The notes below the pieces were generated by a model. That model was not told where the DNA came from, searched no databases, and was given only the letters and a program-made list of their open reading frames with translations. Shown here piece after piece: positions 34,480 to 55,982 of a DNA stretch of 64,000 nt. Origin of the DNA: Paludibaculum fermentans (GTDB lineage: Bacteria > Acidobacteriota > Terriglobia > Bryobacterales > Bryobacteraceae); NCBI RefSeq assembly GCF_015277775.1, contig NZ_CP063849.1:496001-560000 (forward strand), in the 5' to 3' direction. How positions within the stretch are numbered: the stretch's first letter is position 1; each line of letters starts with the position of its first letter. The position numbers and the translations under genes were made by a program.

Positions 34480-35177
34480 AGCGCTTTGTTCTTTTTCTCG
34501 CTCTCGCCGCCCTGCCGCTCGCCGCGGCCGATATCGCCGTGCTCCACACAGGCGCGCGGATTCGTGCCCAGCGCATCGAGAAACTGGACGACCGCTACAT
34601 TCTCACCACCGCCGACAGCCGGATCGAGTTGAAGGCCGACCTGATTGCGGACCTGGAACACGAAGACGATCCCCCTCCGCCGCCAGCGGTTGTGGCGGAC
34701 AAGTCCCTCACGCCCCCGCCAATCAAGGAAACGGATCCCAGGAAGCTGGTCACCGAGGCCGCGATCAAGTACGGCCTGCCACCCGCCATCGTCCACGCCC
34801 TGGCCATGACCGAATCCGCTTATCAGACGAACGCCGTCTCCCGCGCGGGTGCGATTGGCGTGATGCAACTCATGCCCGGCACCGCCCAGTCTTTCAACGC
34901 CGATCCCCGCGATGTCGAGCAGAATATCGACGCGGGCACGCGCCTGCTGCGCGAACTGCTGCTGAAGTACGAGAACGATCCCAACCCGGTGCGCCGCGCC
35001 CTCGCCGCTTACAACGCGGGTTCCGGCGCCGTCGCCCGCTACAACGGGGTTCCGCCCTATCGCGAAACCCAGGCCTACGTGGAAAAGGTGATCGAGCGCT
35101 ACTGGAAGCAGGTCAACGCTGCGCAGCCGGTATCACTCGCAGCTCAAGGTTCTGCGGTCCAGACTCCCGGACAGTGA
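34476..35177 (+). CDS. Secreted lytic transglycosylase (SLT domain)
   Basis: A 233-residue protein with a signal peptide (FVLFLALAALPLAAA), a short N-terminal domain (~18-60), a proline-rich linker (DPPPPPA) and a C-terminal SLT catalytic domain (~90-225). Seen: catalytic glutamate in ALAMTESAYQ, RAGAIGVMQLMPGTAQSF, LLRELLLKYENDPNP, LAAYNAGSGAVARYNGVPPY and ETQAYVEKVIERYW. It cleaves peptidoglycan between MurNAc and GlcNAc. Translationally coupled (ATGA overlap) to the M14 peptidase gene. Its 3' end overlaps the convergent gene by 65 bases. Confidence 0.92.
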   Translation: MKRFVLFLALAALPLAAADIAVLHTGARIRAQRIEKLDDRYILTTADSRIELKADLIADLEHEDDPPPPPAVVADKSLTPPPIKETDPRKLVTEAAIKYGLPPAIVHALAMTESAYQTNAVSRAGAIGVMQLMPGTAQSFNADPRDVEQNIDAGTRLLRELLLKYENDPNPVRRALAAYNAGSGAVARYNGVPPYRETQAYVEKVIERYWKQVNAAQPVSLAAQGSAVQTPGQ

Positions 35178-36732
35178 CCTTCTTCGCCCTGGACATCAGC
35201 GGCTTCAGGAATTCCTCGTCTTCCAGCGCGCCCGGCTCCATCTGATCCAACGACAGGATCGCGTACTCCCCCGGAGCCACATTGGGCAGCCTGAAGGCGC
35301 CGTTCTGGTCGGTGCGCGTCACCCTCACGCGAAAGGCCTTCTTCGGCACCGGTACCAGCCCGACATTCACTGAAGGCACTGGTTCGCCCTTATCGTTCTG
35401 CACGACTCCGCCCAATTCGGCCGTCGCCAGGTTCATTGACACCGCTACCGGCGTCGCCGCGTTCGAGATTTCGGCCTCATCGCTTTCCAGTACCTTCTCG
35501 CCCAGCTTGATCTCTTTTACATAGTGGGTCGAGGGCATGCCAGTGAACGCGATCCGGTACCGGCCCGCCACCAGATTGCCGAGCACGAAATCGCCGTTGT
35601 CGGCCGCCGATGACATCGCGAACGTCGCCACAATGTCGTCCGCCGGTACGGCCACGATCTTGATCGACCCGACCTTCAGGTCCGGAGAGGGCTCCGCCGT
35701 CAGATGCCCCTTCACCTCAAACGGAGCAGCAGCCTGCACGGTCACCTTCTCGATGGGTTGGTCACCGATCTCGATGGACGACTTCACGACGAAAGCCGTA
35801 TTGCCCAGTCCGGTCGGCAGCGTCTGCAGGATATAGGAGCCAGGCGGCACGTTTTTGAAGGTGAACTTACCGTCCGCCCCCTGCAGCAGCGCCCGCGGAC
35901 CCATCGCCCGGCCCATCGGCCCCATGTCCTTGGGCACCAGGCTCAGGTAGGTCACCGACGAAGTGCCGGGCGGTACTCCGGCAATCTCACCCGTGAACGT
36001 CACCGTCTTGATCTTGCTCAGCCGGATGTCGATACCGGGCACCTCGGACGCGTCCTTGATGTCGATGGACTGGGCCTCCGTCATGGTGGGCACCGACGGG
36101 AAGCACGTATTCGACAGCGCCTCCTCCACGCCCGTCTTGACGTCCTTGGGGTTCAGTTGCGGCTGGTAGGATCCTTCCAGCACCGCGCAGACCACGAACT
36201 TGCCCGGCGGCAACTGCCCAATCCTGTACTCGCCCAGGTCATTGCTCATCACGGGCACGGTGCCAGCCGGCAGGCGAATCTTCTTGCCGTTGGCATACAT
36301 GCTGTTCATGGCCAACACCAACGCCTTGGCCACCGGTTCGCCCTCGTTGTCGGTGATCTTGCCGGCGATCACCCCCTGCTTGGGGAGCGCGATGTTTAGG
36401 CCGGTCAGCGCGGCTCCGGCGTCAATCCGCAGCGTCTGCCCCAGCGCTTCGCCCGGATTCTTCGCGCCATAGCCAGTCGCCTGGTATCCGGCCCTCTCCG
36501 CCGACAACCGGTAGCGGCCCGGCTTCACATCCTTCAGAATGTACTTGCCGTCGTCGCCCGTTTCCGCCGACTGTGCCTGTTCGCTGCCGCCGAGCAGAGT
36601 CAGCGTCACCTTCGCCTTCCGGATCGCCGTCTGCGTGGCCGCGTGGGTGACGGCCCCTTCCACCGTGGCCGGCTTCACCTCCTGCGTGGCCGGAGCCTGC
36701 ATCAGCATCGCCATCACGAACAGGGAAATCAT
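35113..36732 (-). CDS. Surface protein with tandem carboxypeptidase-regulatory-like (Ig-like) domains
   Basis: A 539-residue protein. A short hydrophobic N-terminus (ISLFVMAMLMQ) may act as signal. The body is made of several beta-sandwich repeats of the carboxypeptidase-regulatory type: VEGAVTHAATQTAI...DDGKYILKDVKPGRYRL, IAGKITDNEGEPVAKALVL...GEYRIGQLPPGKFVV, ...GKFTFKNVPPGSYIL, ...NGDFVLGNLVAGRYRI and LGGVVQNDKGEPVPSVNVG...NGAFRLPNVAPGEYAIL, about five copies. Such domains are very common in acidobacterial exported proteins. It begins one base after the dehydrogenase stop codon, so it is the last gene of an operon with the HhH and dehydrogenase genes. Confidence 0.85.
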   Translation of the reverse strand: MISLFVMAMLMQAPATQEVKPATVEGAVTHAATQTAIRKAKVTLTLLGGSEQAQSAETGDDGKYILKDVKPGRYRLSAERAGYQATGYGAKNPGEALGQTLRIDAGAALTGLNIALPKQGVIAGKITDNEGEPVAKALVLAMNSMYANGKKIRLPAGTVPVMSNDLGEYRIGQLPPGKFVVCAVLEGSYQPQLNPKDVKTGVEEALSNTCFPSVPTMTEAQSIDIKDASEVPGIDIRLSKIKTVTFTGEIAGVPPGTSSVTYLSLVPKDMGPMGRAMGPRALLQGADGKFTFKNVPPGSYILQTLPTGLGNTAFVVKSSIEIGDQPIEKVTVQAAAPFEVKGHLTAEPSPDLKVGSIKIVAVPADDIVATFAMSSAADNGDFVLGNLVAGRYRIAFTGMPSTHYVKEIKLGEKVLESDEAEISNAATPVAVSMNLATAELGGVVQNDKGEPVPSVNVGLVPVPKKAFRVRVTRTDQNGAFRLPNVAPGEYAILSLDQMEPGALEDEEFLKPLMSRAKKVTVRESGPQNLELRVIPAAQR

Positions 36733-41106: not shown

Positions 41107-42459
41107 TCAGAAGGTGTACGACCCACCAAACATAGGCACCACAGTGCTGCGTAGGCCACTATCGTTCATCTTGAAGATCAGATTCGCGGTCAGCACGAAA
41201 CTGGAAAAGGGGTTCAGTTTAAAACCCAGGGAACCATTGTTCAGATTGAAGCTGTGGTTCGACAGGGCGATGTTGTTGAATGTCTTCGAGCTATTTTCCG
41301 GGTGGGCGGTGGAGGCTGCCGTCGTGAACGTGGTTCTGACCACTCCGGTGGCATCAATGACACGCTGTCCCAGGAAGTCGAAAGTAATGGTTAGGGGCTT
41401 GGCCGCTGAGAATTCTGTCCCCAGCGAGTAGAAAAACTGATTCGGGAGATGAGCCTTCACATTGCTCGTGACGTCTCCGGCGAGAACGGAATCGCCATTC
41501 CACTGATAGCCGACATTGACGTGAGGCGCGAAGCGGCCGGCGTGCAATGAAGCGGCGACGAACGGCTTGAACCCGGCAGCGCCAGACCCCAGAAAGTTCT
41601 TTTCGTCTCCGGTGGGGGCGCGAAAGTCCGCGGCCACGGCGAGCCCGGCCTTTGCGTTCTTCCAGACATTGCCCTTCAATCGAAATGTCACGTCGCCCAG
41701 GCCCGTGGAGGATCCACGGCCAGTGAAGGTCTTATTGATGCTGCCCGTCGGATCAGCGGAGTCAAAGTAGTGAGCTTCCCCGAACTGGGAGTTGGGTCCG
41801 GCGATGCGGCGGATCGTAGCGTTCGACTTCACGTCCAGCGACACATCCATGAGTGGAATGGCCACGGAGAGGTCGATGCGGTTGGTCAAGCCTACCGCGC
41901 CAAAAAGAGTGAATTGGTTGACTTTGAAGTTAATGTCGTTATCGGTCGTAATAACGTCATTCTCGTATTCAGGTTCGGGCGTTATGTTCTCGGCATGCGT
42001 GTGGGTGAAAACGGCTGGCAGGCTGTCGAGACTAACCCCATCGACGCTGCTGAAATTGAAGCGCTGGTAGGCGAACGATAGAAAGAACTTGCCCCGGCCG
42101 AGTGTCTCCGCGCGTTCCGTCAGAATGGGGCCCAGGCTCTGGGCTGAGCGAGTGTAGACGCCTGCGGTCCTGTCGAAGGTATACGTGAATCCCGAGGCCG
42201 GGGAGGCCAGCGGCAACAAAGTCAGTTGCGTCGCCAGCGCGCCGCCCAAAGGGGTGAAGTTCGACTGGAACGAACTCACAAAGTGCGCCTGATGGAAGGC
42301 GTTCGGAAGCACCAGCCCCTGCGGCCCGTACAGATTAGGTATCACGCAGGCAAGCTTGCTGCTGCTCGCGCAAGCAGTGCCGGCAGTTGTTTGCCCCAAG
42401 GCAGACCCCACCCCCGCGCAAATCAGAAGGCACAACCCAATTGAATCACTCGTTTTCAC
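41107..42459 (-). CDS. Outer-membrane beta-barrel protein
   Basis: A 450-residue exported protein. Signal peptide after GTG 42459 (SIGLCLLICAGVGSALGQ); GGAAGGAG lies 9 bases before this GTG and overlaps the codons of a longer form starting ATG 42483, so the GTG is preferred. The mature protein alternates short amphipathic strands and turns (FTLFGAVGLTNRIDLSVAIPLM, GLGDVTFRLKGNVW, LAVAADFRAPTGDEKNF, HVNVGYQWNGDSVL, LTANLIFKMNDS) and ends in a terminal phenylalanine, GGSYTF, the standard sorting signal of barrel proteins. It resembles the Phenol_MetA_deg-type transporter family. Two cysteines near the N-terminus (TACASSSKLAC). It lies 198 bases after the giant kinase on the same strand. Confidence 0.85.
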   Translation of the reverse strand: MKTSDSIGLCLLICAGVGSALGQTTAGTACASSSKLACVIPNLYGPQGLVLPNAFHQAHFVSSFQSNFTPLGGALATQLTLLPLASPASGFTYTFDRTAGVYTRSAQSLGPILTERAETLGRGKFFLSFAYQRFNFSSVDGVSLDSLPAVFTHTHAENITPEPEYENDVITTDNDINFKVNQFTLFGAVGLTNRIDLSVAIPLMDVSLDVKSNATIRRIAGPNSQFGEAHYFDSADPTGSINKTFTGRGSSTGLGDVTFRLKGNVWKNAKAGLAVAADFRAPTGDEKNFLGSGAAGFKPFVAASLHAGRFAPHVNVGYQWNGDSVLAGDVTSNVKAHLPNQFFYSLGTEFSAAKPLTITFDFLGQRVIDATGVVRTTFTTAASTAHPENSSKTFNNIALSNHSFNLNNGSLGFKLNPFSSFVLTANLIFKMNDSGLRSTVVPMFGGSYTF

Positions 42460-42681
42460 TGCTGGACGCTCCTTCCGAGGCATTGCAATTACTCACTTCT
42501 GACGGCAATCACGCCGCACGCACACGTCTCCTCAGGCAATCCACAGTGGCGTGAGGCTTCGATCTGTGATTCAGTCCAGTATCGTCAAGTTTGTAGAAAT
42601 TGTAATCGTAGCCTTCGCCGGCTGCAAGGATAATCTTTGGTGCCAAGTGCTACAAACTGGGATTCTTGTCCGCAAGATTCC

Positions 42682-45600
42682 TTATTGAATGGACGAGATG
42701 GACCAGGCGTCCCCCTGCTTGACGAAGCCGATTGTGACCCTGTCCCGCGCAGCCGGCGGTGCGCCGTCCTTGTATCTCTGGGTCATGCTTCTGGCGCAGA
42801 CAACCGAAGCCTTGGACCCTGAGATGACCGGTGCCGACTCCGGCTGCAACTGCAAATCGATCGAAACCGCGTTCTTAAATGCGGTTTTGAGAAGAGCCAG
42901 CGACTGGCTTGGAATCGATGGCCAGAGGGCACGAACCTGGTCGGCATTCTTCGCGGCGAATGCGGCAGAGTAGCGGCTCACCAGGGCCAGAATAGCCTGC
43001 TCGTCGGCTTTCGACTGTGAGGCGCCTGCGAACTTCGCCAGCTCGTCCCTGGCCTGCTGAGAGTTGGCGCCCCTCGGGTGCTTTTGCAGAAAGGACTCCA
43101 GGTCCGCTTTGTTCGACTTATTCAGGTTGTCCCACTCGATCTTCTCCACCGCGCGGGCAGCTTCCGCGGCAAAACGGCCGTTCGGGTACTTCTTCTGGAA
43201 AGCATCCAAGGCGGCCACGTCCCTGGTGCTGCTCAGACCCGCCCATTCCACCTGTTCGATCCTGTGTCCCGCCTCCTCGGCATGCGGGCCATTTGGAAAT
43301 TTCCTCCGGAACTCCTCAAGCGCGGAGGTGTCGCGGGTGTTTTGCAGGGAGGCCCATTCCTGGGCCTCGAGAGCCCGCGGATCGGCCGGCTTCGGAGATT
43401 CAACGGGCGGAGGAGGAGACGCGGGCTTGCGGATCTCCTGCATCTGTGTCCGCTCCGGTCCGAAGCGCACAGTCGAGCCAGGATCGAAGCGGCTGGCGAT
43501 CTGCCGGGGCGTGAAACCGTCCTTCCTCAAATCGATCGTGTGCTCACCAGATGGCAGCCGGCCCGAGTAGCGGCCATCGGCGCCCGCAAGTCCGTGTTGC
43601 CGGCCATCCACCAGGACCTCCGCGTTCGGAGCCAATCCCGCCAGTTCCAGGTTCGCCTCCCGCGGCGTCAGCCGGAAAGAGAGGCGGAGCACCTCGCCAC
43701 GGTGCAATTCTACGGACTGTTGCCCGGTCGTGTCGTAACCCGGCTTCTCCACTCGAACCGTATACGATTTGGATTCCAACGGAAGCTGCAGGAGTCCGCG
43801 GCTGGTGTAGCGCCGCGAGCCCACCACGACATCGGCTCCGCTTTCATTCGTCTCGACAACCAGAGTGCCGACGTCCCGATTGGCAGTCAGGAAAAGATTC
43901 ATTGAGGGAGAGTCATGCGTCATCAGAACCAGAGGACTGCCATTGCCGACCTTCAACTCATGCGTTCCGGCTCGCATACTCGCCACTTCCAGCGCGGGCG
44001 GCTTCATCACACCCGACGGTTTCCCATCTACTGCGACCGGCTGACCGGCGCAGTTGCACAGCAGCCGGATTTTGCCCGCAAAGCTGGCGACGGCGACGGT
44101 CTTGAGTTCGTTCGAGTTGATGAGATTGGCGAGCCCGGGCATGGCATCGCGGTGAACCTCGAACGACAATGACGCATTCCCATCGGGACCGGAGATCCTC
44201 AAGGTGTGCTTGCCGGGTGCGGCTTCAGTCAGGCGGAATTGACCATTCTCAAGCTTTCCTGCCGGGCGATTGTCGACCTGCACCGTGGCTTCCGCCAGAT
44301 TAGTGGTCAGTTCGAGGATGGGCGGCGGAGGCTCCGGAATGGCCGTCTGTTTCGGACCTCCGGCTGCGCTGCCTTCAGTGGCCGTCTCTTTCCCTGCATG
44401 GGACATGCGCCGGATCGCGACAGTGCCCCCTATTAGGGCAACTACGACAACCGCCGCCGCCGCCCAGCGCGGAATGCCGGCGATGAGCGGCGCCTTCGCC
44501 GGTTCGGATGGGGAGGACTCTTCCACGCCGGCAGGCACAGCGGCCGCCAGGGCCACGGGTTGCTTGGTTGTGGCAGGGGCCGGCGGCCCGCTCAAAGGTG
44601 GTGAGGTAGCGGCCTTCGGCGGTTCCAATCCCTGTAGGGCGGCCTGGATCTGGGCGATGGCCGCCTCGGTCAACAGTTTAAATTCACGATCGGCGGAGAA
44701 AGGCGCCGCCAGTAGCCGGACCTCCTCCAGGCGCGCCTGCAACTTGCCGGGCTCGCGGACGTTGGCGGCTGTTTGCCCCAGCTTGTTCACTTTTGCCGCG
44801 GCTGCTTCACGTGCCTTCTGCAGGCTCCTTTCAGCGGCAATTTCAGCCAGCGACGCCAGGCTTGGCTCGTCGGGAAACTGAGCGCGACTGCGCGCGAGGG
44901 CTTCCAGCGCCTCCTCGCAGCGGCCCTTGTCGATCAGCGATTTGGCGGCCTTCTCCGCCTTTCGAAGTTCCTCTGCTCGTTTGTGCTGCTCCAGTTCCGC
45001 GGAGACTTCCTGCTGGACGGCGGCCAACCGCGGATCCGGCCCTGATTCCTTGACCGCCCGCTCGATGCGTCTGAGTGCGTCGGTGAATTTCTGTTTCTGA
45101 CGCAACCGGTTCGCCTCGTCAATTGCGGCGCCGATAGCCTGGCTGAGCACCTGCGCCTGCCGGGCGGCCGTTGCTCGTTGCAGGAGTTCCGTGAGCGAGC
45201 GTTCACCGGGAAACTCGCGCAGCCCTGCTTCCAGCGCTTGTATGGCGCCGGCGAAGTCCTCTCGCTCAGTGAGAGTCCGGGCCTCCAGGCGGACCCTTTC
45301 GAGAGTGGCGGCCTGCTCCGCCTGGCGAATCCTGGACAATGCTTCGGCCAGCAAAGCAGCGACTTCCGCATCGTTGCCTTCCTCGCGGACAAACGCCTCC
45401 AGCGCTTGCCTTCCCGGAATCAGTTGCCCCGCCGCAATGGTGGATCGCGCCTGGGCGAGAGTCGCCTGCCGCCTATGCTCCCTGCGCTGCGCCTCAATCC
45501 TGGCCGCGATATCGTCGCGTTTGGCTTGCAGTGCCGGATCTGCCCCGACGGTCTGCCGCGCCTGGTCGAGCCGCCTCAACGCATCGGTGAACCGGCCCGC

Positions 45601-48600
45601 GCCGCAATTCTCATCGGCCTCGCGGATGGCTGTGGCGACGGCCTCGGCCCGTTCGAGCGCGCGTTTCTGCTCTGCAAGCTGCAATTCGGCCGACCGCAGC
45701 AGGGCTTCCAGTTCCTTGTTGGCGGGAAAGCGCTGCAGCGCATTCCTCAGGTCCCGCGCCGCGCTGCTCGCGTCTCCTGCCTTCAATCGCGCTTCCGCGT
45801 CCCGGGCGGCCGCGGCGATCTCCGCAAGCTGCCGGCGGTTCTCGACCTCGCCTTCGACAATGCGCTGCAACTCAACCAGCAAAGGCTGCCGTCCCAGTTC
45901 CTTCAGCCCCCGGTTCGCGCGGCGCAGGGCGTCCTCCGTCTTGCCCTGGCTGCGCAGGTCCTTCACGTCCTGCACCACCATCAGGATCGACTGCTGCAGC
46001 TCCGCGGCAGCCTGCGCCGCGGCGGCCTTTTTCAGCAGCGCCTCCATCTCGCCGTTGCGGGAATGCGATCGCAAGCCGTCTCTCAATATCCGCTGAGCCT
46101 CGGCGAAATGTCCCTTGCCTATCTCCTGCTCGGCGCCGGCGAGAACCCTGCCGATCTCCGCCTGCTTCCTCTTGGCCTCGAGGCTTGCCGCGGCGCTCTC
46201 GCGCAACTGGACCAGTGCGGGGAGGTCGGGATAGCGTGCCGTCAAACCATCAAGAACCCGGAGGGCTCCTTCGAAATCACCTTTCGCGATCAAGGATCTG
46301 GCCTCGGCCTCGCCGTCCGCGATGGCTGTGTCGCGGCGCAGGCGTTCGGCCTCCATCCTCACCTCGGCGGCCATCTCTGTGACAGCCGGATGCGCGCCCC
46401 AGCGCTGAGTCCACGCTTCGAGCTGCGATTGAGCTTCCTCATGGCGCCCCTGCGCTCGCAGCGCTCGCGCCTCTTCCACAGCTTGCTCCAATTCCTGTTT
46501 GCGCCGGTGGCCCTGCTGCGCCTCGAAGAGCAGTTTCGTCAGCGCGGCTTCGCCCGCATAGACAGTGGCCGCTTTGCCCAGAATCTGGCTGGCGCCCGCG
46601 AAATCGCCCCGCCGGATCAAGGCCTGTGCGTCGGCCTCCACCGCGCGGACAGCTTCATTCCTTTTTTGTATCTTGAGCCCGTCCGAGAGTTCCCTTTCCA
46701 GACGTTGGAGCCGCGGGTCGGAGGCGTACTCCTTCGGCAGGGACCGTAGGAGTTCCACGCCTTCGGAGTACCGTTCCGATTGCCGCAGTTCGCCGGCCTT
46801 CGCAACAGCCTCCTCGATCTCCCGGTTCCTCTCTTGCGCCGCCCTGTCAGCGCGTAATGCCACCAGGCGAGCCGCAATCTGCTCCTCGCCGGGGAACGAC
46901 TGGACTCCAGCTTCCAGGCTCCGTACCGCGGCGTCCAAGTCGTTAGCCTGCACCTGGGCGTTCACCTTGCCCAGCAGCTGGTCCAGTCTGGCCCGCTGCT
47001 GTGCCGCCGCGCGGGCTTTCGCGAGAAGCGCTTCCAACTCGGGCTCACCGGGGTACTCAGCGCACCCCTGCTCCAGCCGGGCGGCCGCCGCGGCGGCTTG
47101 CCCGCCGGCCAGTAATCGCTCCGCCTCTCCCACGGCCGCCTTCACCGCCGCCGACTTCTTCTGCTGTGCCTTCTCCTCAGCCAGTTGGGCCCGGATACTC
47201 AGGAGTTCCGGTTCCTGGGGATGCGCGTGGAGAGCATCCCCCACCATCTGGAGCGCCTGATCCAATGAACCCCTGTCGCGTAATGCCGCGGCCTCCTCCA
47301 ACGCGCGTGCGACCGCCTGACGCTTCCGCCAAGCCTCCTGGGAATCGCACACGGCTTTGTGGGTCTCCCGCAAAACCGCTGCGTCGGGATACAACTGGAT
47401 CGCCTGATTCAGCAGTTGGATCGCCTCGGAATAGTTCTCCCGCGCGGCAAGGCCGGTGGCCTGTGCGCGGATCTTTTCCACCTCCCCCGCCTGCTGCGCG
47501 ATCTGGAGCCGCTGCCTGGCAGTGGCCATGAGCGGCTGGATTTGTGAGTCGCCGGGAAACCGCGCCAGCGCTCCTTCCAACGTCGCGATGGCCTCGCTCA
47601 CACGGTCCTCACCCAGTTGTCGCTGCGCCTCCTCCACCACTTGACGAACGGCCTGGTCCCGCTGATGCTTCGCCCAGCCGGCTTCTATCTTTGCGCGCAA
47701 CTCCCGCAGTCGGGCCGACCCGGGATGTGCGGCGAGGGCCTCGCGAGTCACATCGAGCGCTTCCTCGAAGAATCCGCGGCGAAACAGGGAATCTGCCTTG
47801 GCCAGCTCTCTTTCCAGCGCCTGCTCGCGCTCCCATGCCCGCTTCGCCGCTGCCGTCTCCGTGAGTAACGACCGGATCGCCTCGCCGCGCTCCGGGAAGT
47901 CGCGCGCCCCTTGATCCAACACCGAACGCGCCTGCTCAAAATCACAGGCACTTGTGAGTTCGCGCAAACGCTGGCGCATGCGTTCGAATGCTTCCGCCTG
48001 TTGCAGCGCCTGTATAGCCTGCTCGGCCTCTTCGAGTAGAGAGAGCAGCAGCGGTTCGCCGGGGAATCGCACAATGCCATGCCGGAGGAGCGGAATCGCT
48101 TTCCCTGGTCGTCCGCCCTTCAGGTAGGACCGCGCGTCCTCCTCAATGCCCCGGATCGCCTGCGTTCTGCGCTGCTGGGCCAGGGCCGCTTCCGCGTCCC
48201 GGCGCAGTTGCAGGAGTGACTCGTCGCCGGCAAACTTGTTCAGTGAGGAGTCGATCAAATGCAAGGCCTCTGCAAGCATCTGCTTCTCAATCAGTTCCTG
48301 GCATCCCTGCACGGCCTCGCTGACGGCCGCTCTACGCTTGTAGGCGGACCAGTCCGCGATTGTCGCCTGTAGCGTTTCCAATAGAAGTTGCTCGCCCGGG
48401 TACTGCCGGAGTCCATCCTCCAGCCGTTCGACGGCTTGCGCGTACTGCCCTCCTTTGCGCAAGGCAACCGCATCGCCTGCCGTGGCGGCCGCGAACTCCG
48501 CCTTTTGCTTCAAACGCAACTCATCGCGAATAAAGCCCAGCAGCCCAACTACTTCACGATGGTCCGGGAACTCTTTCGCCAGCCCCTCCGCCAGAACCAA

Positions 48601-50151
48601 CGCCTCTTCCAAGCGATTTTCCCGAAGCAACTGGCGGGTAGCGTCGAGATACTGCTGCAATCGCTGGCGATGCAGTTGCTCCTTCTTCAGCACCTGTGCC
48701 CGTTCCATCGAGGAAGCGACCTCAGGAGAGCCTGGGAACTTCGCCGACAGATCGGTCAGAGCGGCAATTGCCTCATCGATGGATTGCATCAGAAACATCG
48801 CCTGCACGCGGCTCAACTCGGCTTTCAGGCGCTGCCCACGGTCCCGTTCCTGCATCTGCCGTCGAATTTCGTCCAGCAGTTGCATCGCCTCGGGATTCTC
48901 GGGGTCGCTTTCGGCGGCTTCTGAAGCGTGCTTGAAGGCCCCAGTGAGGTCGTTGTGCTCCAATCCTTTCTTGGCACTGGTGATCAGTTCGGCGGCTCGG
49001 CGGCTCTGCTCCAGCAACGAACGGGCCTGCTCCACCAGCGCAATCAATTGGCTGTTGGAGGGATCCAGGGCCAGGGCGTTCTCGAACCACCGGACCGCGT
49101 CCTGGAAGCGCCTGCTTTGTAGCTCTGCGTGCCCCTTCGACCGCAGTGCGTCAACCTCGTGCTTCAGCGCCTGCCGTCTGGTGGCCTCCCGGACATTCTC
49201 CCGAAGACGCCGCGCGCTTCTGTTTCCGGGATCGAGTTCCAGCACCCTTTTGAGGATCTTCGACGCGGCATTGAATTCGCCGCTGACAAAATGCCCCTGC
49301 GCCTCGGACAACAGCGAAACTGCCTCTTCATATTGCAGTTCCATCATGATCGGCTCCGCGTCCAGCCTGCATTCTTCAATGGACTGGTAGCGCAGCGAAC
49401 GGTCTTTCGCCATCGCCCGGTGGACAACCTCAGCCAGGGCGGGCGGGCACTCGGACAAGTATTCCTTGAGGCTTCTGGGCTCCTGATTCATGATGGAAGC
49501 CATCACCGCTGGAGCCGTTGGACCCGAAAAGGGATGCTTTCCGGTCAGCAACTCGTAGTAGATCACCCCATAGGCGAATATGTCGCAAAGCCCGTCTGTC
49601 TCGGCGCCCAGAAACTGCTCTGGCGACATATAGGGGATGCTGCCCACCAGATACCCCTGCTGGGTCAAGCGGGTTCCCTCCCCATCCACCAGGCGGGCAA
49701 TCCCGAAATCCATGATCTTTACCGTCAAGTCCGGCAGCAGCATGATGTTAGCCGGCTTCACGTCTCGATGCAGCACGCCATTTGCATGCGCGCAGTGAAG
49801 ACCCTCCGCCACCTGCGACATGACGTGCATCTTTTGCAGTAAGGTCAGCTCACGTTTGCGGTGGATGGCTTCGTTGAGATCCTCTCCTTCCAGCAGTTCC
49901 ATCACGATGTATGCCATGCCCCGGTCTTCGCCGAAGTCGTGAATCGTAACGATGTTTTTGTGGTGGAGATTGCCAGCAGCGGACGCTTCGTTGCGAAACC
50001 TCGCCAGCATGGCGGCATCGGCGCTCTCGGTCAGGACTTTGATCGCGACAGGACGCGAGACCACCGGATCGAAGGCACGGTAAACCCGGCCGAACCCGCC
50101 TCTGCCAAGCTCAGCCGCGATCTCATACTTGCCGATGCGTTCGATCGTCTC
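42682..50151 (-). CDS. Giant membrane-spanning Ser/Thr protein kinase with ~27 TPR-like repeats and periplasmic PEGA-like domains
   Basis: About 2,490 residues. Residues 1-265: kinase domain with ETIERIGKYEI, Gly-rich loop LGRGGFGRV, lysine in VAIKVL, HRDVKPAN, DFGIARL and SIPYMSPEQ, all catalytic residues present. Residues ~275-1835: about 27 tandem 55-60 residue TPR-like units (pattern A..L...G.F..A...L...L..FPG...L..L) joined by charged coiled helices. Residues ~1888-1915: one transmembrane helix (WAAAAVVVVALIGGTVAI). Then periplasmic: PEGA-like domains (ATVQVDNRPAGKLENGQF, ADVVVGSRRYTSRGLLQLPL, AEVLVDGRQHG), three WA.L..TRD..AL..F repeats and a C-terminal NTF2/SnoaL-like domain. The start is unresolved: the kinase frame contains no ATG, GTG or TTG upstream of the glycine loop, and a run of six Gs (50151-50156) separates it from an upstream frame; with five Gs a TTG at 50194/50191 would lead in frame. 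Coordinates begin at the first codon of ETIERIGKYEI. Confidence 0.9.
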   Translation of the reverse strand, partial: ETIERIGKYEIAAELGRGGFGRVYRAFDPVVSRPVAIKVLTESADAAMLARFRNEASAAGNLHHKNIVTIHDFGEDRGMAYIVMELLEGEDLNEAIHRKRELTLLQKMHVMSQVAEGLHCAHANGVLHRDVKPANIMLLPDLTVKIMDFGIARLVDGEGTRLTQQGYLVGSIPYMSPEQFLGAETDGLCDIFAYGVIYYELLTGKHPFSGPTAPAVMASIMNQEPRSLKEYLSECPPALAEVVHRAMAKDRSLRYQSIEECRLDAEPIMMELQYEEAVSLLSEAQGHFVSGEFNAASKILKRVLELDPGNRSARRLRENVREATRRQALKHEVDALRSKGHAELQSRRFQDAVRWFENALALDPSNSQLIALVEQARSLLEQSRRAAELITSAKKGLEHNDLTGAFKHASEAAESDPENPEAMQLLDEIRRQMQERDRGQRLKAELSRVQAMFLMQSIDEAIAALTDLSAKFPGSPEVASSMERAQVLKKEQLHRQRLQQYLDATRQLLRENRLEEALVLAEGLAKEFPDHREVVGLLGFIRDELRLKQKAEFAAATAGDAVALRKGGQYAQAVERLEDGLRQYPGEQLLLETLQATIADWSAYKRRAAVSEAVQGCQELIEKQMLAEALHLIDSSLNKFAGDESLLQLRRDAEAALAQQRRTQAIRGIEEDARSYLKGGRPGKAIPLLRHGIVRFPGEPLLLSLLEEAEQAIQALQQAEAFERMRQRLRELTSACDFEQARSVLDQGARDFPERGEAIRSLLTETAAAKRAWEREQALERELAKADSLFRRGFFEEALDVTREALAAHPGSARLRELRAKIEAGWAKHQRDQAVRQVVEEAQRQLGEDRVSEAIATLEGALARFPGDSQIQPLMATARQRLQIAQQAGEVEKIRAQATGLAARENYSEAIQLLNQAIQLYPDAAVLRETHKAVCDSQEAWRKRQAVARALEEAAALRDRGSLDQALQMVGDALHAHPQEPELLSIRAQLAEEKAQQKKSAAVKAAVGEAERLLAGGQAAAAAARLEQGCAEYPGEPELEALLAKARAAAQQRARLDQLLGKVNAQVQANDLDAAVRSLEAGVQSFPGEEQIAARLVALRADRAAQERNREIEEAVAKAGELRQSERYSEGVELLRSLPKEYASDPRLQRLERELSDGLKIQKRNEAVRAVEADAQALIRRGDFAGASQILGKAATVYAGEAALTKLLFEAQQGHRRKQELEQAVEEARALRAQGRHEEAQSQLEAWTQRWGAHPAVTEMAAEVRMEAERLRRDTAIADGEAEARSLIAKGDFEGALRVLDGLTARYPDLPALVQLRESAAASLEAKRKQAEIGRVLAGAEQEIGKGHFAEAQRILRDGLRSHSRNGEMEALLKKAAAAQAAAELQQSILMVVQDVKDLRSQGKTEDALRRANRGLKELGRQPLLVELQRIVEGEVENRRQLAEIAAAARDAEARLKAGDASSAARDLRNALQRFPANKELEALLRSAELQLAEQKRALERAEAVATAIREADENCGAGRFTDALRRLDQARQTVGADPALQAKRDDIAARIEAQRREHRRQATLAQARSTIAAGQLIPGRQALEAFVREEGNDAEVAALLAEALSRIRQAEQAATLERVRLEARTLTEREDFAGAIQALEAGLREFPGERSLTELLQRATAARQAQVLSQAIGAAIDEANRLRQKQKFTDALRRIERAVKESGPDPRLAAVQQEVSAELEQHKRAEELRKAEKAAKSLIDKGRCEEALEALARSRAQFPDEPSLASLAEIAAERSLQKAREAAAAKVNKLGQTAANVREPGKLQARLEEVRLLAAPFSADREFKLLTEAAIAQIQAALQGLEPPKAATSPPLSGPPAPATTKQPVALAAAVPAGVEESSPSEPAKAPLIAGIPRWAAAAVVVVALIGGTVAIRRMSHAGKETATEGSAAGGPKQTAIPEPPPPILELTTNLAEATVQVDNRPAGKLENGQFRLTEAAPGKHTLRISGPDGNASLSFEVHRDAMPGLANLINSNELKTVAVASFAGKIRLLCNCAGQPVAVDGKPSGVMKPPALEVASMRAGTHELKVGNGSPLVLMTHDSPSMNLFLTANRDVGTLVVETNESGADVVVGSRRYTSRGLLQLPLESKSYTVRVEKPGYDTTGQQSVELHRGEVLRLSFRLTPREANLELAGLAPNAEVLVDGRQHGLAGADGRYSGRLPSGEHTIDLRKDGFTPRQIASRFDPGSTVRFGPERTQMQEIRKPASPPPPVESPKPADPRALEAQEWASLQNTRDTSALEEFRRKFPNGPHAEEAGHRIEQVEWAGLSSTRDVAALDAFQKKYPNGRFAAEAARAVEKIEWDNLNKSNKADLESFLQKHPRGANSQQARDELAKFAGASQSKADEQAILALVSRYSAAFAAKNADQVRALWPSIPSQSLALLKTAFKNAVSIDLQLQPESAPVISGSKASVVCARSMTQRYKDGAPPAARDRVTIGFVKQGDAWSISSIQ

Positions 50152-50193
50152 CCCCCAGAGTGCGGCGAGTCCGGTCCCAGAACAGGCTCAACA

Positions 50194-50977: not shown

Positions 50978-51730
50978 TCAATCAGCGCCGGTTGCAGAGT
51001 CCAACGCAACAGCGACGAGCACCTCCGTGCCAGCGCCGGGCCTGCTCCAAATTCCGAATCGAGCGCCGATGCTCTTTGCCCGGTTCCGCATGACGCAAAG
51101 ACCGCCATGCGCAGTCGCCTCCTCAACCGCCAGGGGATTGATTCCGCAACCGTTGTCACGAACGAAGACTTGCACCCGGCCGCCCCGGTACTGGATCTCG
51201 ACTTCGATGCTCGTCGCTTGAGAATGCCGCATCGCATTCACAAACGCTTCCCGGCAGATCAAAACGAGCTGCTCCTGCATGGTCGGATCTAGCGTCCGTG
51301 GCCTTCCCTGGACAAAAACCCGAATCCTACCACCCGGAGAGCATCTTGCCTCCTCAACGAGCGTCGAAAAGGCACCCTCCAGACCCGACAGAGCGCGAGA
51401 AGCACAGTGGACGCCGCTCACGGCCGCACGGCATTCATCCGTGACTCGGCGCACCCAGCGTATAGCGCCGCTGAGCGTCAGTCGGCAAGGTGAATCCGCA
51501 CCCACGTCTTCAATGGCCTGCTGGAGTAGCATGGACGCACCGGGAAATCCCTGCGGGCGAGTGTCGTTCAACTGACAAACCGAGCGCGCCCCGTTCCAGG
51601 AGTGGACTTCCAGGCGGATTTCCTCTCCGCGCATCGGATGTGCTGCAGCGGTAGGGCGGCCACACGGCGTCATTTTGGGCATCAGGCCCTGCGATCGCAA
51701 GGGGCTCGCAATGGATTGCCCTGGTTTCAA
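50978..51730 (-). pseudogene. Histidine-kinase C-terminal fragment lacking the phospho-accepting histidine
   Basis: A 250-codon open frame. Residues ~155-245 form a HATPase_c domain of the NarX/LiaS type: N box ICREAFVNAMRHSQATSIEVE, G1 box FVRDNGCGINPLAVEEA, GGLCVMRNRAKSIGARF and GAGTEVLVAV. In front is a degraded dimerisation helix, CQLNDTRPQGFPGASMLLQQ, where related kinases have HDTLLQGF: the phospho-accepting histidine is replaced by asparagine. No sensor or membrane part is present upstream. Taken together it looks like the tail of a larger two-component kinase left behind by deletion. It may still be expressed as an ATP-binding protein, but kinase activity is unlikely. Confidence 0.6.
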
Positions 51731-54077: not shown

Positions 54078-55982
54078 CTACTGCCCGATGTCGACGAACT
54101 CGGCGTCGACCACATCATCCTTTGCAGCGTTCTTCTGGCCGTTTGCGCCGCCATTGGGTGGCGGAGCCTGGGCGCCGGGCTGAGCGGAGGATTTGTACAT
54201 CGCTTCGGCCAACTTGTGGCTGGCGGCCGTCAGCCGGTCAGTGGCGGCCGTGAGCCGCACCGCGTCGTTCTCGCCGATGGCCTTCCTGGTCTCTTCAATG
54301 GCCAACTCGATCTCCTTCGCGCCTGCCTCGCCGATGCTGCCGCGATGCTCCTTCAGCGTCTTCTCAACGTTGTAGACCATGGCGTCGGCCTTGTTCTTGG
54401 CCTCGATGTTGTCGCGTAGCGTGCGGTCATCGGCCGCGTGTGATTCGGCATCCCTGGTCAACTGATCCACATCGGCCTTCGAGAGCCCGGAAGAAGCCGT
54501 GATCGTGATCTTCTGTTCGTTCTGGGTCGCCGTGTCCTTCGCCGCGACGCTGAGGATGCCGTTCGCATCGATATCGAAGGTCACTTCAATTTTCGGCAGG
54601 CCGCGCGGAGCCGGAGGGATGTTGCCGAGTTGGAACACGCCCAGCAGCCTGTTGTCACGGGCCATGGCGCGCTCGCCCTGGTGGACCTTGATCTCCACCG
54701 ACGGCTGGTTCTCAGTAGCCGTGGAGAAGGTCTCGCTCTTGCGCGTCGGAATGGTTGTGTTGCGTTCGATCAGCTTGGTGAACACGCCGCCCATCGTCTC
54801 GATACCCAACGACAACGGCGTGACATCCAGCAGCAGGACGTCCTTGACCTCTCCGCCCAGCACGCCGCCCTGGATCGCGGCGCCGATGGCCACCACTTCG
54901 TCCGGGTTCACACCCTTGTGCGGCTCTCTGCCGAAGAGCTCACGAACCAGCGTCTGGATTCGCGGCATGCGCGTCTGTCCGCCCACCAGGACCACTTCGG
55001 CGAGCTGTTGCGGCGTCACTTCCGCATCGGCAAGAGCCTGCTTGCAGGGGCCCACTGATCGCTGGATGATGTCTTCCACCATCTGCTCGAAACGGGCCCG
55101 CGTCAGCTTCAAGGTCAGGTGCTTGGGGCCAGTGGCGTCGGCGGTCACAAACGGCAGGTTGATTTCCACTTCCAACAGCGTGGACAGCTCCATCTTGGCC
55201 TTCTCGGCCGCTTCCTTCAAACGCTGCAGCGCCATCGGATCCTTGGACAGATCGACCTGATTCTCCTTTTTGAACTCCGCCACGATCCAGTCGATGATCC
55301 GCTGGTCGATATTGTCTCCGCCCAAATGGGTATCCCCGTTGGTGGACTTGACTTCGACTAGCCCCTCGCCAACCGTGAGGATCGAAATATCGAAGGTGCC
55401 GCCGCCAAAGTCATAGACGGCGATGGTCTCGTCTTTCTTCTTATCGAGTCCGTAAGCCAATGCGGCCGCGGTCGGCTCGTTGATGATCCGCAGGACTTCG
55501 AGACCGGCGATCTTGCCGGCATCCTTGGTCGCCTGGCGCTGCGCGTCATTGAAATAGGCGGGTACGGTAATCACGGCCTGCGTGACTTTGCCGCCCAGGT
55601 AGGCCTCTGCCGCTTCCTTCAGCTTCGTAAGGATCATTGCGGAGATCTCAGAGGGCGAGTATTTCTTGCCGGCGATCTCCACCCGCGCGTCGCCATTCTC
55701 GCCGCTGACCACCTTGAAGGGCACCATCTTCATCTCTTCACTGACCTCGTCAAAGCGGCGCCCCATGAACCGTTTGATCGAGAAGATGGTGTTCGCCGGG
55801 TTGGTGACCGCTTGCCGTTTGGCAATCTGGCCGACAAGGCGCTCCCCCGTCTTGGTGAAGGCCACGACGGACGGTGTAGTTCGGGCCCCCTCCTGGTTGG
55901 CAATGACGGTGGGCTGGCCGGCCTCCAGAACACAAACCGCGGAGTTAGTAGTGCCTAAATCGATACCGATGATCTTTCCCAT
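54078..55982 (-). CDS. dnaK: Chaperone DnaK (Hsp70)
   Basis: A 634-residue Hsp70. Nucleotide-binding domain (~1-380): [91 protein letters not shown]. Substrate-binding domain (~390-510): [46 protein letters not shown]-type lid edge [20 protein letters not shown]. Helical lid and a short acidic tail ending [18 protein letters not shown] lies about 12 bases before ATG. There is no grpE, dnaJ or hrcA beside it and no CIRCE element upstream, so it may be a paralogue with separate regulation. Confidence 0.95.

Follow-up and report, generated by a model that had tools for sequence, protein, structure and literature searches.

A giant membrane-spanning Ser/Thr kinase of Paludibaculum fermentans with 27 TPR-type repeat units and a tail linked to a predicted outer-membrane barrel gene

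Little appears to be known of how single-pass bacterial Ser/Thr kinases sense conditions beyond the inner membrane. The PknB/PASTA layout consists of a kinase domain, a membrane helix and extracytoplasmic repeats, and in spectrin-type rods, helical units joined by continuous helices form an extended rod. The nearest tested precedent that we found for a tetratricopeptide repeat (TPR) part tying a kinase to envelope sensors is PknG of Actinobacteria; the accessible passages of its description present a kinase with a C-terminal TPR domain, proposed to be a scaffold for localisation and regulation, and an operon that carries the envelope sensors GlnX and GlnH (PMC8546545). The longest published arrays that we found are those of the TPR- and WD40-array Ser/Thr kinases of Planctomycetota, which, in the accessible parts of that study, are mostly single-spanning and have up to 15 TPRs, mostly predicted to be periplasmic (PMC11032199). 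Here we describe a giant kinase encoded on the reverse strand of a 64,000-nucleotide stretch of Paludibaculum fermentans (GCF_015277775.1, contig NZ_CP063849.1, positions 496,001 to 560,000; hereafter the window), in which 27 TPR-type units stand between a kinase domain and a membrane helix, and whose C-terminal tail is recurrently encoded beside a predicted outer-membrane beta-barrel protein.

A 27-unit array between a kinase domain and a membrane helix

The repeat array of the giant kinase is contiguous and regular. BLOSUM autocorrelation of the protein peaked at 56, 112 and 168 residues (0.271 at 56, against −0.39 for the highest of 20 shuffles), and an iterated hidden Markov model (HMM) search of this one sequence resolved exactly 27 contiguous units, each with E ≤ 1.5e-11. 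The unit HMM, which was trained on the real units, found two matches in total in 20 array-shuffled copies compared with 27 in the real protein. A first-pass annotation of the window had counted 27 repeats by eye, which is the number obtained here, while its period of 57-60 residues and its estimate of about 1,550 residues of repeats are replaced by a period of 56 and a measured length of 1,507 residues. Pfam family TPR_14 matched at 140.9 bits against a cut-off of 23.5 (E 7.8e-43), and the best PDB sequence matches of the units were designed pentatricopeptide repeat (PPR) proteins, followed by TPR designs (60 of 88 matches listed); these comparisons support a TPR origin of the units. A generic coiled coil, which the annotation had itself named as the outcome fatal to its proposal, is ruled out by the periodic TPR-type units and the strong Pfam match.

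In the organism's own genome (150 of 415 first-look candidates scored), the 27 best matches to the unit profile all fell in the giant frame; the seven that followed were weak (E ≥ 4.5e-6), and three of these belong to a different kinase frame of 1681 codons. The units share a mean of 24% and a maximum of 43% protein identity, and the highest ungapped nucleotide identity between them is about 51%, which rules out a recent expansion of the giant's own array.

The N-terminal domain matches the Pfam kinase family with E 5.8e-50 and carries GRGGFG at residue 28, VAIK at 47, HRDVKPAN at 140, DFG at 160 and SPEQ at 188. By these motifs and the Pfam match it is a Hanks-type Ser/Thr kinase with a full set of catalytic motifs, as first annotated. 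The codon-position GC pattern fits a single coding frame, and the frame, whose interruption would have counted heavily against the annotation, is unbroken in the sequence given (Table 1).

Beyond the array, a Pro-rich linker leads to a hydrophobic segment at about residues 1899-1929, and the Kyte-Doolittle scan found no second membrane segment in the protein, in agreement with the single span proposed at first. Of the PEGA-like domains of the annotation, one clear PEGA domain lies in the beta-rich region, where residues 2107-2176 pass the Pfam cut-off (PF08308; E 2.2e-15, 56.7 bits against 20.8). Two further C-terminal features held in part: all three of its W...TRD repeats are present as W-repeats, with TRD in only two of them, and its NTF2-like cap corresponds to a weak NTF2-like end whose matches lie under the Pfam cut-offs (DUF4440, E 0.0047; SnoaL_3, E 0.0093). 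Fold prediction of the C-terminus without an alignment was poor except for the W-repeats (mean predicted local distance difference test score, pLDDT, 49). The array would lie on the cytoplasmic side because the kinase needs ATP, and the C-terminal ~570 residues should be periplasmic, given a cytoplasmic kinase and no second membrane segment.

In an AlphaFold2 model of units 5-10 (337 residues; mean pLDDT 94), helices of 14 and about 35 residues alternate, and the end of each unit runs unbroken into the first helix of the next. The TPR signature is present in the sequence, and the prediction departs from the classical superhelix, in which helix-turn-helix units of 34 residues pack directly on one another. 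Local Foldseek matches were to TPR proteins (best E 1.9e-5, probability 1.0), but global superposition failed, with template modelling (TM) scores of 0.13-0.20 on the query and root mean square deviations of about 28-47 Å (50 matches listed of 1170). The model is most simply read as a chain of continuous helices that carry single TPR hairpins and their capping helices. Since each unit pairs a 14-residue helix with a continuous helix of ~35 residues, a spectrin-like rod of single TPRs appears likelier than a compact solenoid. If the long and short helices are antiparallel, each unit would add (35−14) × 1.5 Å, or ~3 nm, and 27 units would reach at most roughly 85 nm. The long cytoplasmic solenoid that had been envisaged between kinase and membrane thus keeps its probable cytoplasmic position, but the fused ~35-residue helix and the low TM scores make its solenoid form doubtful.

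A reading of the giant as a bacterial kinase of the usual kind with a long but conventional TPR superhelix, and with neither an unusual shape nor a dedicated partner, would agree with the TPR_14 match, with the designed PPR/TPR proteins found by sequence and the TPR proteins found by fold, and with the Planctomycetota kinases of up to 15 TPRs, as far as these are described in the accessible parts of the source (PMC11032199). We nevertheless regard it as quite unlikely, in view of the fixed period of 56 rather than 34, the predicted fused helix, the failed global superposition on TPR superhelices and the strong linkage between tail and barrel genes described below.

Table 1. Features of the giant kinase locus, in window coordinates. 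The first row gives the stop-to-stop frame, not the limits of the gene.
Feature	Position	Strand	Remarks
Giant kinase, stop-to-stop frame	42682..50187	-	2501 codons, uninterrupted
ACG-ATC codons, likely start region without canonical start	50143..50148	-	From comparison with 47 relatives
Ser/Thr protein kinase domain	49363..50133	-	Residues 19-275; catalytic motifs complete
27 contiguous 56-residue TPR-type units	44803..49323	-	Residues 289-1795
Single transmembrane helix	44413..44487	-	About residues 1901-1925; Kyte-Doolittle, 19-residue window
Beta-rich PEGA-type region	43393..44322	-	~Residues 1956-2265; low-confidence strands in predicted fold
Three W..L repeats, predicted helical hairpins	43078..43377	-	~Residues 2271-2370; pLDDT mostly near 90
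Weak NTF2-like (DUF4440/SnoaL-like) end	42685..43035	-	~Residues 2385-2501
Partner gene, 458-aa predicted outer-membrane beta-barrel protein	41107..42483	-	PF13557, E 1.2e-10; about 200 bp downstream

Array length and unit turnover in related kinases

Relatives were sought with a query of the kinase and first repeats at a threshold of E ≤ 1e-60, which was reached in 55 of the 257 genomes searched from the order and in 128 of the 396 drawn from the phylum, where most matches align to the kinase domain alone. The order search gave 71 rows including the window, and 45 of the other 70 were taken together with three rows from the phylum. The 18 weakest rows, from G093 (4.2e-78) downward, were left out, as were strong ones that were short, at contig ends or extra (G062:C835, G070:C711, G122:C402, G063:C128, G170:C445:12725, G129:C392 and G129:C317). 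The family set comprises the 47 relatives with a kinase score >200 bits; 13 of 60 loci were excluded on this basis, including L086, with its kinase at a contig end, and L032/L203.

Among the 39 relatives that no contig end truncates, arrays range from 1 to 24 units (24 in L068), and the 8 truncated ones have up to at least 24 (L062), so that the 27 units of the window protein form the longest array measured in this set. The length had been called unusual; this holds for the count, the next uncut relative having 24, but the protein is a member of a family found in several genera of the order, with shorter arrays elsewhere in the phylum. At the short end, L071 and L072 have one unit each and kinases 54-55% identical to that of the giant over about 325 residues. 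The frames of L074, L077 and L078 end within 20 residues of the array and away from contig ends; these genes may be broken.

A second giant of 2478 codons was observed at L203:4356-11789 (-), the same locus as L032. Its kinase domain is more distant, its array has 14 units by the family profile and only 4 by the window's profile, its tail is the same as that of the window giant, and its barrel gene is divergent. A back-translated scan with a C-terminal query found no named relatives. With universal kinase motifs, such a scan found at least 80 loci, in which the window-only unit HMM gave ≤2 units per kinase frame and the family HMM at best 3-4 units (Edaphobacter aggregans, a Terriglobia metagenome-assembled genome (MAG) and an Acidobacteriota MAG).

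The family also bears on the start of the giant kinase. No ATG, GTG or TTG lies in frame upstream of its glycine loop, and the first such codon is a GTG at 50064, within the kinase N-lobe; a gene finder restricted to these three codons would start there and drop the glycine loop. All 47 relatives have a start codon before the kinase, which in 37 is an ATG (31) or GTG (6) at codon -5 or -4 relative to the kinase domain, where the giant reads ACG-ATC, and in the remaining 10 lies further upstream. A near-cognate start, a miscalled base and a dead start are all possible. A decaying locus, which would yield no full-length kinase or just the form from GTG 50064 without the glycine loop, would explain the missing codon, but the 7.5-kb frame is intact and motif-complete, near-cognate starts exist, and one base-call error would account for ACG-ATC; we consider decay very improbable.

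Unit number varies even inside supported clades of the kinase tree (17 against 7 and 4; 8 against 14), while a clade of nine (g23) is steady at 14-16 units; the window kinase itself is placed without support. Units 86-96% identical in protein sequence, adjacent or next but one to each other, were found in L033, L068 and L082, and tandem duplication is therefore ongoing in the family. Such variation raises the possibility that array length is nearly neutral, repeat DNA being expanded and contracted by recombination in a kinase that tolerates any length. The range of 1-24 units in uncut relatives, the differences inside supported clades and the fresh duplicates are all consistent with this. The units of the window protein, however, are old and diverged, and yet all 27 keep both pattern and frame, and the constancy of clade g23 is likewise hard to reconcile with free drift in length. 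We therefore find neutrality unlikely.

Conservation depends on position in the array. Same-numbered units counted from the kinase side in 19 proteins exceed a random baseline of 23.4% identity by 11.4, 7.5, 7.5, 5.4 and 4.3 points at units 1-5, by 3.6-3.9 points at units 6-8 and by -0.1 to 2.5 points at units 9-14; some of these proteins are closely related, which raises the values at every position equally. With numbering from the membrane side (17 proteins), the excess is -0.4 to 1.9 points. Because positional identity between proteins falls away from the kinase, the kinase-side units are, on these alignments, the more fixed ones, and the membrane-side units turn over.

The C-terminal tail and its neighbouring barrel gene

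Relatives of the barrel encoded beside the giant kinase were found at E ≤ 1e-8 in 42 of the 257 genomes of the order, at 51 places, and relatives of the tail (the last 201 residues of the giant) at E ≤ 1e-4 in 46. Both counts are lower bounds, since only some first-look candidates were scored (for the own genome, for example, 6 of 8 and 12 of 18); the barrel places were merged by hand from 60 rows, and a few duplicate tail rows were combined or dropped. Of the 51 barrels, 40 have a tail match at a distance of at most 1.6 kb (36 of them at most 310 bp), with the tail on the same strand in 31 cases and on the opposite one in 9, against a chance expectation of fewer than 0.1 by arithmetic from genome size rather than simulation. 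Three more barrels adjoin array kinases (G039, G130:C79 and G173:C210).

The tail is carried by array kinases, by short kinases in which a Pro-rich linker is present (L194-L196, L198) and by frames of array, PEGA and tail that lack a full kinase (L199-L202, L204). Of the latter, L201 is truncated at a contig end, and pieces of a kinase stand in another frame of L200. At three loci, L191:1635-3068, L192:1878-3263 and L193:1891-3282 (all +), it is joined to a caspase-like domain in one protein, preceded by a separate kinase open reading frame (ORF) and followed by a barrel. Judged by these sequence matches, the W-repeats and NTF2-like end are a portable tail that keeps its barrel neighbour while the rest changes. 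Since different proteins carry the tail, the array is an optional insert in a kinase-tail-barrel set. The gene linkage between tail and barrel is much firmer as a fact than in its meaning.

When 21 loci were compared (the window and 20 others), four neighbour families were shared by at least three genera: a barrel-type protein (455-555 aa) at 9 loci, a caspase-like and FGE-sulfatase protein at 6, a PP2C phosphatase at 3 (E 8.1e-16 in L176) and a large exported protein at 3 (L185, L189, L190). The caspase-like neighbour of L178, the only one tested, matched Peptidase_C14 with E 1.5e-10 and FGE with E 7.5e-49. Simple ORF picking overlooked a barrel beside G063 and a caspase-like gene beside G101, both of which were recovered by tblastn. 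Among the 31 array kinases (window included) that have ≥8 units and ≥500 bp of downstream sequence, the barrel is the next gene in 12 (8 on the same strand, 4 convergent) and a caspase-like gene in 10. The seven kinases with fewer than 8 units have the barrel in none and a weak caspase-like match in two. A caspase-like/FGE-sulfatase gene lies right downstream of array kinases without an adjoining barrel at L178:11702-13246 (+) and nine other loci.

Upstream of the giant, the window encodes an HATPase_c protein (50978-51730, -) and a DnaK-type Hsp70 (54078-55982, -; Pfam E 5.5e-260), both absent from the neighbour families that recur in three or more loci. A 539-aa protein with three carboxypeptidase-regulatory-like domains is encoded at 35113-36732 (-).

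A candidate envelope-spanning receptor and its relation to described kinases

These observations raise the possibility that the giant is a single-pass, receptor-type Ser/Thr kinase acting across the whole Gram-negative envelope, in the order barrel, tail, membrane, rod and kinase. We give this reading a probability of about 50%. The tail, borne on PEGA stalks in the periplasm, would touch the barrel encoded next door, and occupancy or strain at the barrel could be relayed through the one membrane helix to the cytoplasmic 27-unit rod, which would keep the N-terminal kinase at a distance from the membrane. The constrained kinase-side units would probably dock the kinase or its substrates, as has been proposed for the PknG TPR domain, while the membrane-side units may be an exchangeable spacer and docking strip, lengthened and shortened through tandem duplication; the rod would set the reach or docking capacity of the kinase inside the cell.

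Several points weigh against this reading. For eight of the 51 barrels no kinase or tail was found (L197 and L209 being the two inspected), and 9 of the 31 array kinases have neither a barrel nor a caspase-type gene next door, although in one of these, L069, a caspase-type ORF lies 1.3 kb away. Adjacency of tail and barrel genes can also persist by descent. A barrel relative from L171 has no Pfam family, unlike the barrel of the window; neither of the two matched an NCBIfam family, and no solved structure related to the barrel was found at E ≤ 1. The charges around the membrane helix do not clearly favour a C-terminus-out topology. With respect to the rod, the six-unit model has a predicted TM score of 0.56 and was built from a 4-row alignment of window units only, one row of which is shifted by a unit.

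Alternatively, the array may mainly be a multivalent cytoplasmic docking scaffold whose unit number sets its capacity, with the envelope partner incidental. TPR cores usually bind proteins, and the divergence of the units (none >43% identical) is as expected of distinct binding sites. A localisation scaffold has also been proposed for the PknG TPR domain in the accessible passages (PMC8546545). Membrane-side units, on the other hand, keep almost no positional identity between genera, as a spacer would, and the kinase-tail-barrel set occurs also without an array. We consider the scaffold somewhat unlikely as the main function. With respect to anti-phage defence, the PADLOC matches to anti-phage kinases (PD-T4-6, mad6), of which 25 of 32 are listed, cover the kinase domain or the kinase and early repeats (C3a189, MkoA), and PADLOC gave no match for the barrel, a caspase-type protein or the HATPase protein; among the matches listed there is thus little to favour such a role.

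The receptor reading could potentially be extended to the family as a system in which a portable tail reads the barrel and a rod of 0-27 units (up to roughly 85 nm), fixed on the kinase side and duplicated on the membrane side, sets kinase reach by its length. This extension is tentative, and we hold it to be rather doubtful as a whole. What is new here is that the probably periplasmic end is a portable tail, usually beside a barrel gene, which suggests a signalling line across the whole envelope. A tail whose barrel neighbour stays constant while the kinase part changes provides a concrete candidate for an outer-membrane partner, and the natural series of 1 to 27 units on related kinase domains would make rod length, reach and signalling open to comparison. 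At the level of titles and abstract openings, with few subscription papers and preprints in reach, we found no published account of such an array kinase or kinase-barrel pair.

Like PknG, the giant joins a Ser/Thr kinase to TPR-type repeats. PknG differs, in the accessible passages of its description, in having one ~390-residue TPR domain with linker (433-822 in CgPknG) and a membrane part supplied by another protein, whereas the giant has its own membrane helix; those passages describe no 56-residue rod or barrel partner (PMC8546545). The Pfam scan of eight neighbouring genes, in which no search was aimed at either gene, named no glnX or glnH. With the Planctomycetota kinases it shares a membrane kinase with a long tandem array, but its array lies between kinase and membrane, with a 56-residue unit in 27 copies (compared with the accessible parts of PMC11032199). 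Its best NCBIfam match is the PknB/PASTA family NF033483 (E 2.6e-89, residues 19-290), at 300.8 bits under a cut-off of 450, and no PASTA domain was found at E ≤ 0.1, which places the giant outside that family; the layout is alike, with a PEGA, W-repeat and NTF2-like tail instead of PASTA. Spectrin is not among the Pfam matches, the PDB sequence matches (60 of 88) or the Foldseek matches (50 of 1170) listed. The likeness to spectrin-type rods lies in units set on continuous helices, and the difference in a sequence derived from TPRs; if the model is true, such a rod of fused-helix TPR units of 56 residues would differ as a repeat architecture from the TPR superhelix.

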